A stretch of DNA of 64,000 bases from Acidobacteriota bacterium. GTDB taxonomy: Bacteria > Acidobacteriota > Blastocatellia > RBC074. The stretch is taken from assembly GCA_016196035.1 (NCBI GenBank), contig JACPYM010000020.1, forward strand, positions 1-64,000. The letters are read 5' to 3'. This document shows, in pieces, positions 14,260 through 62,152 of this stretch (the stretch's first letter is position 1; each line of letters opens with the position of its first letter). The position numbers were made by a program, and so were the translations under genes. The notes under the pieces are model-generated. The model searched no databases and was not told the DNA's origin. It worked only from the letters and a program-made list of their open reading frames with translations.

Positions 14260-14343
14260 GAAGGCGGAAGGCGGTAGTCGGTAGTCGGAATCCGGCAGTC
14301 GCTGCCCTCTTCCGAATTCCGAATTCCGGCTTCCGCCTTCGCC
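14260..14343. repeat. Twelve-unit heptamer inverted repeat
   Basis: The segment divides exactly into twelve 7-base units, from GAAGGCG GAAGGCG GTAGTCG GTAGTCG to ATTCCGA ATTCCGG CTTCCGC CTTCGCC. The second half is largely the reverse complement of the first. It fills the whole gap between the receptor stop (14344) and the ligase start (14251) and may form a hairpin that tunes readthrough. Confidence 0.8.
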
Positions 14344-21375: not shown

Positions 21376-22368
21376 TTACGTCCAGCGAAAAGCCAGACAG
21401 CCTAAAGCCACGCCGCCGCCTGAACCGCACAGGATAATCACATCACCTGATTTCAGCTTGCCCTGTCGCGCCGCATCGTCCAGCGCCATCGGGATGCAGG
21501 CCGAACCGGTGTAACCCCACTTGTCCATAATCGTGTGCGCTTTTGCCAGCGGCTGCGCGAGCGTTTTCATCACCGTTCTGATGGTACTCAGGTTGAGTTG
21601 GGTGAAGAAAAACATGCCGACGTCGTCGAGCATCAGGCCGCTGCGTTTGAGTACTTGCCCAATCATCTGCGGCCAGCGTTCGAGGTTGAAGGACGAAGGA
21701 ATCTTCTGCACGAATTCCAGCAACTGCTCGCGTTGCGCGGTCTGAAAATGATTGAGCGGCTGCCGCGCGCCGCCCGCGTAGATGCCCATGTGGCCGTAGT
21801 AATTGCCGTCCGCCGCCAGTTGCGAAGCCAGGAAACCGGGACCGTCAGTGCTGGCCTGCAAGACAACTGCGCCCGCACCGTCGGCAAAGAGCGTACAGGT
21901 TTTCTTGTCGTTCCAGTTCAGAAATTTGCTCATCGCATAAGCGCCAATCACCAGTACGTGATTGTATTGCTCATCCGCGCTGATGAATTTCGCCGCCGCG
22001 TCGAGCGCCGTGACAAAGCCCGCGCACGCGCAATTCACATCAAATGTGGCGGCATTGATCGCGCCGAGCCGGCTTTGGACGAGGGAAGAGGTCGCGGGCG
22101 AGATGAACTCCGGCGTGTCTGTCGCCAGGATGATGAGGTCGAGTTGTGCGGGCGCAATTCCGGCTGTGGCCAACGCCCGCTCGGCCGCCCGCACTGCCAA
22201 ATCCGCCGTGCTTTCGTCCTCCGCGCAAATATGGCGTTCGTTGATACCGATAACGCCGGAGACGAATTCATTGATGTCTTCGCCCAGCATCAGGCTGAGA
22301 TCGTGATTGGTCAGCGTCTTTTCCGGCGCATACGAGCCGGTTCCGGCAATTCTGGCGTAGCGGGTCAT
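21376..22368 (-). CDS. 3-oxoacyl-ACP synthase III-like thiolase-fold enzyme
   Basis: 330 residues, FabH-like. The thiolase fold and nucleophile are clear: DVNCACAGF places catalytic C115, and the C-terminal GSGGGVALG matches the glycine loop. The other two catalytic positions are altered. The usual PHQAN segment reads FTQLN (His replaced by T256) and the usual GNTSAAS reads GYTGSAC (Asn replaced by Y286). Standard decarboxylating condensation is therefore doubtful; acyl transfer or another Claisen-type reaction is possible. The gene heads the kinase-regulator pair with a 10-base gap. Its ATG overlaps the original stop of a broken phosphoesterase gene. Confidence 0.88.
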   Translation of the reverse strand: MTRYARIAGTGSYAPEKTLTNHDLSLMLGEDINEFVSGVIGINERHICAEDESTADLAVRAAERALATAGIAPAQLDLIILATDTPEFISPATSSLVQSRLGAINAATFDVNCACAGFVTALDAAAKFISADEQYNHVLVIGAYAMSKFLNWNDKKTCTLFADGAGAVVLQASTDGPGFLASQLAADGNYYGHMGIYAGGARQPLNHFQTAQREQLLEFVQKIPSSFNLERWPQMIGQVLKRSGLMLDDVGMFFFTQLNLSTIRTVMKTLAQPLAKAHTIMDKWGYTGSACIPMALDDAARQGKLKSGDVIILCGSGGGVALGCLAFRWT

Positions 22369-22905
22369 GCGGTTCCTTTCTCTCTTTGAAGTGGGACAAG
22401 TGTGGCCCGGCTTACTGCGCGGCGCGCTTGTCCCAACGTGTATTCGTACAGGGTCTTCAGGGCGTTTGCAAAGTCGCCAGCGCGCGCGCTCAAACGGTTT
22501 GACTGACTCCCGATTCCTGGTTCCTGATTCCTGACAAATTGAAAATCAGCCGGTATTTTCAGTTTAGCAGGAATCAGGAGTCGGGAATCAGGAGTCAGTC
22601 AAAGGTCTTTGGCAGATATTTTAAGGACTTTGCAAAAGCCCTGACAGGGTCTTCGAATCCGCACCGCTGAATTTTACGGTCAGTGTGCTGGCGTCGGCTT
22701 CGAGCGTGATGAAGCCGTAGGCGCTGCGGGCAAAGAGCGAACGTTTTACGTTGCGGTCTACGCCGCGAATTTTCGCGTCGCCGCCGCCGTTGACGAAAAA
22801 GTGTAGGCCGCCTCTGGGTTTGAGGTATTGCATATCGTGTTCGTGCCCGGCGAAGTAAATGTCTGCCTCTAATGAGCAATTCTCTCAAAGCGCCGAAGCC
22901 ACGGT
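22365..22905 (-). pseudogene. Metallophosphoesterase remnant, interrupted by a MITE
   Basis: The frame with IYFAGHEHDMQYLKPRGG (GHEH metal motif) and FFVNGGGDAKIRGVD matches the C-terminal third of purple-acid-phosphatase-like metallophosphoesterases. Upstream, HRGFGALRELLI is in another frame and joins after removing one base near 22873. All earlier sequence is missing. Downstream, the frame is cut by the 186-bp element. Removing the element and one copy of its 10-bp duplication restores KTLYEYTLG and an open frame to a TGA that overlaps the KAS III start codon (ATGA). The intact gene was probably the first member of that operon. Confidence 0.75.
22458..22643. mobile_element. 186-bp MITE with 10-bp target duplication, ISAs1-like ends
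   Basis: Terminal inverted repeats CAGGGCGTTTGCAAAGTC (left) and its partner at 22626-22643 match at 17 of 18 positions. ACAGGGTCTT occurs directly on both sides (22448-22457 and 22644-22653) as a perfect 10-bp duplication. The interior has no gene, only a heptamer inverted repeat (about 22501-22535 against 22566-22600). CAGGG ends with 8-10-bp duplications are what I recall for the ISAs1 family, so an ISAs1-type transposase probably moved it. Confidence 0.85.
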
Positions 22906-41400: not shown

Positions 41401-42615
41401 TTAGCCAAAGCAATACAGCTTCCCATCCTGCGCGCCAATTACCACACGCCCGCCCGCAATCGCCGGGGAAGCCGAGACGGCTGCGCCCGCGTTGAACTCC
41501 CAGACCTTCGCGCCGGTGTTCAAATCCAGCACGTAAAAGCGCCCGTCGTTGGAGCCGATGTAAACGCGGCCACCGGCTATGGCAGGCGAAGACTCGACGC
41601 GGGCGTTGGTGCGGAACGACCAGAGTTCTTTGCCGTTGGCGGCGTTGAGGCAGTGGACGACTTTGTCGCGTCCGCCGAGGATCACTTTGCCGTCAATGAC
41701 CGCCGTCGAAGAGTAAAAGGGGAACTGGCGTTGCGGGTGCATGTAGCGCCAGACGCGGCGGCGCGTTTTGAGGTTGATGCTCAGGACTTCGTTGGCGAAG
41801 TTGCCGAAGAAGGCTTGCAGCCCGGCGGGCGTGTTGAGAATCGTGACCGAGGCGCCGGTGTTGCCGATGCCCGCGAGGTGCGTCACTTCTTTGCCGTCGC
41901 TGATGCGGATGCCGTGGAAGATTTCGTCGCAGCCGCCAAAGTAGGCGATGCCGTCCACGATACAGGGTGTGCCGTGGACATAGTTCTCGGTCTTGAACTG
42001 CCAGATGGTCTTGCCGGAGCGCGCTTCAAAACAATAGAGCGAACCGTCGTAAGAGCCGATCAAAACTTTGTCGCCAACAATGACCGGTGAGCATTTGATT
42101 TCGCCACCGCTTTTGTACGTCCACAGGCCCTGGCCGTTCGTGGCGTTGACGGCGTGAAAGGTGCCTTCCAGATCGCCTACGAAGACGAGGCCATTGGCGA
42201 CGGCGGGGGAGGATTCGCCGACGGCTTCTTTGGTTTTGTATTTCCACTTCGGCTTGCCCGACCAGAGGTCTACGGCAATGAGTTCGCCAGCGTTACTGTT
42301 CGACCCGGTGCCGACGTAAACGGTGGCATCGGCGATGGCGGCGGACGATTCGATGATCTCGCCCGCGTTGAGCGACCACATCTGTTTCAGATTTGCATTG
42401 ATGGTCGAAGGCGAGACGCCGGTTAGGTTGTAGTTGCCGCGAAATTGGGGCCAGGCGTCAGACGATTGCGGATTGCGGATTGCGGATTGCAGATTAGCGG
42501 GATTGAGCAAGCTGTAAGTTGCCGCAGTCATTGCGCTGGCGAGCCAGGTTCTGCGGCTTACGGAAATCCGCAATCCGCAATCCGCAATCCGCAATCCGTT
42601 ATTCAGTATGCCCAT
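41401..42615 (-). CDS. PQQ-like beta-propeller protein with Tat-like leader
   Basis: 404 residues. The ATG at 42615 lies inside the end of the alcohol dehydrogenase gene (13-base overlap), indicating coupled translation. The N-terminus has a twin-arginine-like motif SRRTWLASAM and a hydrophobic stretch. The rest is a seven- or eight-bladed propeller with blades such as VYVGTGSNS, VFVGDLEGTFHAVNA and VYIGSNDGRFYVLDL. Residues about 8-18 (RIADCGLRIS) and 41-52 (NLQSAIRNPQSS) are encoded by the two arms of a heptamer inverted repeat. No PQQ-dehydrogenase vicinal cysteine pair is seen, so cofactor use is doubtful. Export to the periplasm is likely. Confidence 0.85.
   Translation of the reverse strand: MGILNNGLRIADCGLRISVSRRTWLASAMTAATYSLLNPANLQSAIRNPQSSDAWPQFRGNYNLTGVSPSTINANLKQMWSLNAGEIIESSAAIADATVYVGTGSNSNAGELIAVDLWSGKPKWKYKTKEAVGESSPAVANGLVFVGDLEGTFHAVNATNGQGLWTYKSGGEIKCSPVIVGDKVLIGSYDGSLYCFEARSGKTIWQFKTENYVHGTPCIVDGIAYFGGCDEIFHGIRISDGKEVTHLAGIGNTGASVTILNTPAGLQAFFGNFANEVLSINLKTRRRVWRYMHPQRQFPFYSSTAVIDGKVILGGRDKVVHCLNAANGKELWSFRTNARVESSPAIAGGRVYIGSNDGRFYVLDLNTGAKVWEFNAGAAVSASPAIAGGRVVIGAQDGKLYCFG
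42464..42602. repeat. Heptamer inverted repeat inside a propeller gene
   Basis: The left arm has GATTGCG units at 42464, 42471 and 42478 with GATTGCA at 42485. The right arm has CCGCAAT units at 42568, 42575, 42582 and 42589, flanked by CGGAAAT and CCGTTAT. The arms are complementary and 70-75 bases apart. Both are translated in the propeller gene at 41401-42615. Confidence 0.85.
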
Positions 42616-61039: not shown

Positions 61040-62059
61040 ATGAACGAGCAGGCTGTGGCGCCTTCGCCAGCACTGTTTTTTGAGGCGGTCAACGCCTATC
61101 AACGCACGGCCGCCATCAAGGCCGCCGTCGAATTGGAAGTCTTCACGGCCATCGCCGAAGGGAACTCTACCTATTACGCCGTCGCCGCGCGTTGTCGCAC
61201 TTCGGAACGCGGCATGCGCATCCTGCTGGATTATCTGGTCATCATCGGCTTTTTGACCAAGTCCGGGGATCAATATGCTTTGACGCCGGATTCAGCGCTG
61301 TTTCTGGACAAGCACAAACCGACGTATGTGGGTGGCGCGATTGAATTCCTGCTGATGCCGGAAATGATCGAGGCGCACAGCAACCTGAGCGAAGCCGTGC
61401 GCAAGGGCGGCACGGTGCTGGGCGAGCAAGGCACCGTTTCGACGGAAAATCCGGTCTGGGTGAATTTCGCGCGCGCGATGATGCCGCTGATGATGCTGCC
61501 CGCACAGGGCATCGCCAAGATCGTCGAAGTCGAGCAAACGCGCCCGGTCAAGGTGCTGGACATCGCCGCCGGGCACGGCATCTTCGGCATCGCCTTTGCC
61601 CAAGCGAATCCGAATGTCGAGGTGACGGCGCTCGATTGGCCGAAGGTGTTGGAGGTCGCGCAAGAGAATGCGCAGAAATTCGGCGTCAAAGATCGCTTTG
61701 CCACGTTGGCGGGCAGCGCGTTTGAATTGGATTGGGGCAGTGGTTACGACGTAGTGCTGGTCACGAACTTCCTGCACCATTTCGATGTGCCAACCTGCGA
61801 AGCGTTGTTGCGCAAGGTGCACGCCTCGCTCAATCCCGGCGGACGCGCCGTGACGCTTGAATTCGTGCCGAACGAAGATCGCGTCACCCCGCCGCAATCC
61901 GCCGCTTTCGCGTTGACGATGCTCGGCTCGACCCCGGCAGGCGATGCTTATACGGCGGTCGAATACAACCTGATGTTTCGCAATGCGGGGTTTGCCTACA
62001 CCGATTTATTTCCGGTGCCGCAAACCGTCGAGCATGTGCTGGTATCTGTGAAAGGATGA
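61040..62059 (+). CDS. SAM-dependent O-methyltransferase-like protein
   Basis: 339 residues from the ATG at 61040, just after a G-rich ribosome site (GGGGGGAG). The N-terminal winged-helix dimerisation domain (about 8-100: FFEAVNAYQRTAAIKAAVEL, RILLDYLVIIGFL) and the C-terminal Rossmann fold match small-molecule O-methyltransferases of the acetylserotonin/polyketide type. The SAM motif is VLDIAAGHGIFGIAFAQ, followed by TALDWP and the VTNFLHHFD region. Substrate unknown; such enzymes often methylate hydroxylated aromatics. The last codons (GGA TGA) are already part of a heptamer repeat. Confidence 0.9.
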   Translation: MNEQAVAPSPALFFEAVNAYQRTAAIKAAVELEVFTAIAEGNSTYYAVAARCRTSERGMRILLDYLVIIGFLTKSGDQYALTPDSALFLDKHKPTYVGGAIEFLLMPEMIEAHSNLSEAVRKGGTVLGEQGTVSTENPVWVNFARAMMPLMMLPAQGIAKIVEVEQTRPVKVLDIAAGHGIFGIAFAQANPNVEVTALDWPKVLEVAQENAQKFGVKDRFATLAGSAFELDWGSGYDVVLVTNFLHHFDVPTCEALLRKVHASLNPGGRAVTLEFVPNEDRVTPPQSAAFALTMLGSTPAGDAYTAVEYNLMFRNAGFAYTDLFPVPQTVEHVLVSVKG

Positions 62060-62150
62060 GGGATGAAGGCGGAAGGATGAAACAGAAGTTCCGGTTCATC
62101 CTTCCGCCTTCATCCTTCATCCTTCATCCTTCATCCTTCCGCCTTCATCC
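62054..62150. repeat. Heptamer inverted repeat between convergent genes
   Basis: The left arm is GGATGAG GGATGAA GGCGGAA GGATGAA (62054-62081). The right arm is eight units, TTCATCC TTCCGCC, four TTCATCC, TTCCGCC, TTCATCC (62095-62150), complementary to the left. It includes the methyltransferase stop codon and ends two bases before the rsgA stop, so it probably serves as a shared terminator. Confidence 0.88.
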
Positions 62151-62152
62151 TT

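Follow-up and report, generated by a model that had tools for sequence, protein, structure and literature searches.

A multicopy MITE with ISAs1-type ends carries a heptamer stem-loop core that behaves as a separate module

The stretch of DNA analysed here, positions 1-64000 of contig C20 of a 9.59-Mb acidobacterial draft genome in 139 contigs (the window), contains a short palindromic element in the frame of a phosphatase-like gene, which raises the question of what kind of element it is, what moved it, and where its interior of tandem heptamers comes from. Its terminal inverted repeats agree at 17 of 18 positions and it is bounded by perfect 10-bp duplications (Table 1). The element is predicted to fold as DNA into one long hairpin of -57.2 kcal/mol, compared with -22.3 ± 3.2 kcal/mol for shuffled sequences (z = -10.8). 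None of the listed open reading frames of at least 60 residues lies wholly within 22458-22643, and no Rfam family matches the element at its gathering score; the matches obtained, mostly to microRNA hairpins, fall far under the gathering scores and were taken as chance.

Table 1 Features of the element, of the gene remnant at its insertion site, and of a second MITE family. Positions are those of the window unless a locus is given.
Feature	Position	Strand	Basis or remark
MITE, ISAs1-type, 186 bp	22458..22643	+	genome-wide copies
Left target-site duplication, 10 bp, ACAGGGTCTT	22448..22457	.	repeat comparison
Right target-site duplication, 10 bp, ACAGGGTCTT	22644..22653	.	repeat comparison
Left terminal inverted repeat CAGGGCGTTTGCAAAGTC	22458..22475	+	
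Right terminal inverted repeat CAGGGCTTTTGCAAAGTC (family consensus)	22626..22643	-	
Central stem-loop, left arm	22498..22546	+	GAYTCCT heptamers at 22503-22534; 49 nt, 86% complementary
Loop, 8 nt	22547..22554	.	either orientation among copies (16:16)
Central stem-loop, right arm	22555..22603	-	heptamers at 22568-22598
Purple-acid/tartrate-resistant-phosphatase-like C-terminal remnant, 3' end cut by element, 5' part missing	22654..22880	-	
Last codons of phosphatase remnant past element (YEYTLGQARRAVSRATLVPLQREKGTA stop), overlapping next gene's start	22365..22457	-	
Second MITE family (CTCAGTAGTTCCAAA ends)	L239:454-644, L243:411-600, L249:447-639, L253:364-545, L273:941-1110		

When the element and one duplication are removed, the minus-strand frame continues as ...FSGADSKTLYEYTLGQARRAVSRATLVPLQREKGTA*, reading ...SKTLYEYTLG..., and its stop overlaps the start of the next gene. 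What the element interrupts is a frame for the C-terminal ~90 residues of a protein resembling purple acid phosphatase. An 83-residue piece aligns to residues 216-298 of the 313 in tartrate-resistant acid phosphatase 1ute (E = 0.00069), about three residues beyond the junction being included, and the PF14008 match is sub-threshold with no gain from joining (15.9 versus 16.1 bits). Since only these C-terminal residues are present and an in-frame stop lies directly upstream, the gene was already a remnant, broken upstream, with the element in its tail.

The element used as query gives 81 matches in its own genome, many of which pair up as forward and reverse hits to a single palindromic copy, and most full-length places cover query positions 11-196, i.e., the element with its flanks excluded. 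Among the own-genome loci sampled, 41 copies are end-paired, defined as having both ends at no more than five mismatches each and seven summed, with single-ended copies left out. The 10-bp duplication is exact in 10 of these 41 and present at up to two mismatches in 26, compared with 1 of 1640 control combinations of left and right flanks from different copies passing two mismatches at 10 bp; exact duplications of 6-9, 11 or 12 bp were not found in any of the 41. A clean 10-bp duplication is missing in the other 15, a few of which (e.g., L025) look like shifts in end calling, while the remaining ones may be recombined or decayed. With many short, non-coding copies, the element is a MITE. This is in agreement with an earlier sequence-only reading of this DNA, which described near-identical 18-bp ends beginning CAGGG and a perfect 10-bp duplication, called the element a MITE and proposed a genome-wide search for the 18-bp ends. 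Its placement of the insertion inside a gene holds as far as the restored frame goes, with the qualification that the gene is a C-terminal remnant preceded by a stop. The perfect duplication was also taken to indicate a fairly recent insertion; that argument is weakened by 9 of the 40 other copies having exact duplications too.

Three individual copies deserve mention. One (L015:1440-1746), lacking a duplication, is central in a palindrome with arms of ~27 bp, and another (L006:1468-1801) lies within the stem of a different heptamer stem-loop, built of AGACTTC units, with that repeat as its duplication. A copy at a contig end (C117:444), considered as a collapsed full-length partner, proved to be a MITE cut by another sequence, presumably IS1 from the way it reads.

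Within the window, the tandem GAYTCCT pair is confined to this element (6 matches, 0.27 expected). Three tandem units at up to two mismatches have at least 98 forward and at least 113 reverse matches in the genome, and none in the control. The exact triple-heptamer matches group, by reading, into 23 places. A CAGGG-type end, scored at up to four mismatches within 170 bp, a level reached in 0 of 3000 random windows, is found on at least one side in 15 of the 23; two places are within elements of a second MITE family with the unrelated ends CTCAGTAGTTCCAAA, and six are in neither family. Five copies of the second family were found among the loci examined; they are 170-193 bp long, all contain GATTC-type heptamers, and their flanks suggest a 5-bp AGACT-like duplication. 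The suggestion that the element is a vehicle for spreading heptamers is thus borne out in part: it fits GAYTCCT at the 15 places with an end, and leaves the places in the other family or in neither unaccounted for. The further statement that the interior repeats are of the kind seen elsewhere in the window does not stand, the other heptamers being different sequences without such ends. These other stem-loops and arrays are located at 14260-14340, 42464-42598 and 62053-62152 (GAAGGCG-like, GATTGCG/AATCCGC, TTCATCC), and no ISAs1-type ends were seen at them. At L247:152-503, another palindrome, made of other repeats, is nested within a GAYTCCT heptamer pair.

The two arms of one copy resemble each other more than arms drawn from different copies do (mean score 23.6 versus 20.1), and 0 of 5000 permutations reach the observed score. 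In five copies both arms are identical within the copy, though the copies differ from one another; the left arms of many copies fit the right arms of certain other copies better than their own. This permutation test was used in place of RNAalifold, which finds two-sided changes in 19 of 51 pairs of a 32-copy alignment, because the heptamer register makes that alignment unreliable. Among the 32 aligned copies the loop is found 16 times in each orientation, four of the calls being weak (score differences below 3). Forms without a hairpin also occur (L077, which has a perfect duplication and is 85 bp long; L063; L080; L241), and may be either ancestors or deletions.

Searched as DNA, the element gave no match in 10 further genomes from its family, including one of the same genus, nor in plasmid and phage collections, and the bare 15-bp end is present in 5 of 98 genomes, the source genome counted. 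In the same-genus genome (G001), the GAYTCCT core is absent from the 260 bp viewed by the ends (L100, L104). The same ends enclose other interiors in two further genomes. In one of them, G006 from another genus, they surround a different, ACCTANA-like heptamer hairpin. The period-7 score exceeds the 99% shuffle level in 8 of the 9 G006 elements scored (L102 being the exception) and in 0 of 4 elements of the other genome, G008, and the one G006 hairpin that was folded gives z = -9.8. Two further occurrences of the 18-bp end enclose unrelated interiors, at L189:3523-3714 in an Anaerolineae bin, with a perfect 10-bp duplication, and at L225:3692-3843 in a Limisphaerales bin. A MITE in a Gammaproteobacteria bin (L199) was not taken to add another phylum, its interior being G006-like and the bin of neighbouring accession prefix.

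The presence of the same ends around another heptamer in another genus, and of the same core in another MITE family, argues that the core is exchangeable, and the 16:16 loop orientation that it is invertible. It behaves as a module separate from the ends, swappable and invertible, and may itself be mobile. There is an appreciable, if less than even, chance that the heptamer hairpin is instead immobile: slippage and template switching would have made it once, within an ancestral MITE, so that the other GAYTCCT hairpins are MITEs that have lost their ends or recombined. The 15 of 23 places with at least one CAGGG-type end would be expected from such a history, as would the single-ended and decayed copies that exist (L064, L072, L246). 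It accommodates less readily the other settings of the core, namely the second MITE family with its unrelated ends, the inverted arrays flanking a PF05635 gene (L262) and the six of 23 places at which it stands alone, and also the sharing of this core by several subterminal types (L065/L075/L076, L074, L233) that have the same ends.

The ends themselves point to the ISAs1 family. The exact 18-bp end occurs in 70 stretches of a 257-Gb collection of named genomes, where arithmetic predicts ~8 matches by chance. In a Pyrinomonadaceae bin (L193:3485-4806), the identical 18 bp (18/18) terminate an element of 1322 bp on either side; it encodes an ISAs1-family transposase (NF033564, E = 8.2e-68), and with so few matches expected in 257 Gb, an inverted pair around an ISAs1 gene is not chance. 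Similar end pairs, with 0-3 mismatches per end, lie 1291-1308 bp apart at L221, L207 and L184, and the ISAs1 locus L134 has three mismatches in each end. The proteins of L193, L134 and L221 score 223-232 bits against NF033564 (cut-off 70), L207 and L184 being called ISAs1 from their translations alone. C/TAGGG ends are also found on further ISAs1 elements within the class. The pairing of such ends with an ISAs1 transposase in L193 and similar elements, together with these C/TAGGG ends, supports the assignment of the MITE ends to the ISAs1 type at the level of sequence, as the sequence-only reading had proposed; the full-length element with the same ends for which it called exists in the Pyrinomonadaceae bin and was not found in the source genome.

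ISAs1 elements duplicate 8-10 bp of target. L130, a separate ISAs1 element with CAGGG ends from a relative, is bounded by a perfect 10-bp duplication. Of the five full-length elements with ends of the MITE type, L184 has an 8-bp duplication; in the other four (L193, L207, L221, L134), none between 6 and 12 bp was seen at one mismatch or less. The MITE thus has ISAs1-like ends and a duplication in the 8-10 bp range, and no autonomous partner was detected in its genome. Such a partner is usual for MITEs of this kind, although not strictly defining. NF033564 and PF13808 have no matches in the source genome, a draft of 139 contigs in which assembly loss is possible, and as no ISAs1 transposase is detectable there, its source is lost, unassembled or external. 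The genome G008 has MITEs with these ends, yet its own ISAs1 gene (L131) has another end sequence. The terminal 18 bp are the sole sequence common to the MITE and L193.

It is very improbable that the likeness of the ends to ISAs1 is a coincidence and that a transposase of another family moved the element. The missing ISAs1 gene and the seven matches to PF01609 (DDE_Tnp_1) of other kinds in the same genome would fit such a history, against which stands the identity of 18 bp at both ends of the L193 element, beyond chance. None of the seven PF01609 genes, considered as autonomous partners, has paired ends, and six of the loci lack a site within three mismatches of the 15-bp end; the weakest match, L098, has one at three. 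Least credible of all is a selected regulatory hairpin, a terminator or mRNA stabiliser, in place of a mobile element, a role that the very stable fold and the location between two genes would suit, and that is contradicted by dispersed copies each with its own 10-bp duplication, by the copy inside the stem of another heptamer hairpin and by the lack of an Rfam family at gathering score.

We conclude that the element is very probably a non-autonomous MITE with ISAs1-family ends, moved in trans and carrying an exchangeable and invertible heptamer stem-loop core. An ISAs1-type DDE transposase supplied in trans, from a source now presumably lost or unassembled, would recognise the 18-bp ends, and insertion at a 10-bp staggered cut would generate the observed duplication, in this case at the 3' end of the already broken phosphatase gene. 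The middle of the element does not derive from the insertion sequence; as a tandem-heptamer stem-loop, a kind of module of which this genome has many versions that differ in sequence, it may have been acquired from the heptamer stem-loops of the genome, or stem from their invasion of the element, and travel as a passenger of the MITE. Exchange or templated copying between the arms would be the simplest explanation of the arm match within copies, and exchange between inverted arms could flip the loop.

Heptamer arrays are a wider feature of this genome. In a 464-kb sample (20 own-genome stretches plus the window), 25 arrays have period 7, compared with at most five for each of the periods 5, 6 and 8-11, and inverted pairs of arrays occur at period 7 only (six pairs, none after shuffling). 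A GAYTCCT locus (L254) encloses a small open reading frame, and the same place on contig C76 is a match to PF05635 (23S_rRNA_IVP; L262). The genome has 11 PF05635 matches, nine of them over the cut-off (L255-L263), and a fixed detector finds inverted heptamer arrays flanking eight of these nine genes and 12 of 23 PF05635 genes in relatives (L286-L314; 29 fetched, 23 with full flanks). The six short-flank loci and the two own matches under the cut-off were dropped before counting. The detector fires at 0 of 400 random own positions and 0 of 18 ISAs1 loci, and other periods give 0 around PF05635 genes except period 9, at two of 23. The flanking heptamer differs between PF05635 genes, and that of L262 is the heptamer of the MITE. 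Compared with such a gene-bearing stem-loop, the MITE has the inverted heptamer arrays and lacks the IVP reading frame, its loop being 8 nt. No description of this association was found in the literature within reach of the search, which excluded most subscription papers, or in the accessible part of PMC4679880.

A broader idea, which we offer tentatively and consider unlikely on present evidence, is that heptamer stem-loops are self-standing mobile or self-copying DNA modules, defined by period 7 and inverted arms and not by sequence. The gene-bearing form would encode the PF05635 (IVP) four-helix-bundle protein, which would help to make or spread the stem-loops, and gene-less forms would invade other elements, such as the ISAs1-type MITE, as exchangeable cores. 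The association of heptamer stem-loops with PF05635 genes would open a protein family that has long been puzzling to tests of its function.

With respect to known systems, the element extends a known kind, as a large MITE family with ISAs1-type ends whose genome has ceased to show the transposase. The modular core sets it apart, with a hairpin that can be exchanged or inverted without regard to the MITE ends around it. The element resembles the ISAs1 family (NF033564) in its 18-bp ends starting with CAGGG, identical on L193, and in a 10-bp duplication like that at L130, and differs in being a 186-bp MITE without a transposase, compared with ~1.3 kb, that has only the terminal 18 bp in common with L193. 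Among the bacterial MITEs that descend from insertion sequences or transposons are TIMEs and MITEAba12. Such elements are short and multicopy, with inverted-repeat ends, a duplication, a stable hairpin and no coding capacity, as given in the accessible part of PMC4133298, and the present element has all of these traits. Unlike them, its core is an exchangeable, invertible heptamer stem-loop found also in unrelated elements.

Heptamer repeats are known in Cyanobacteria as STRR. Those of Beggiatoaceae and Cyanobacteria (TAACTGA) are abundant, mostly intergenic 7-bp tandem units according to the accessible part of PMC4679880, and the 7-bp tandem units are the point of likeness. Here, in contrast, inverted pairs form stems, and many different heptamers occur per genome. 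In the intervening sequences of 23S rRNA, a long inverted repeat holds the IVP/S23 reading frame (PF05635) in its loop. The PF05635 reading frames described here have a corresponding place, but lie outside any rRNA seen in their loci, between heptamer stems that vary by gene, whereas the MITE has the stem without the gene.
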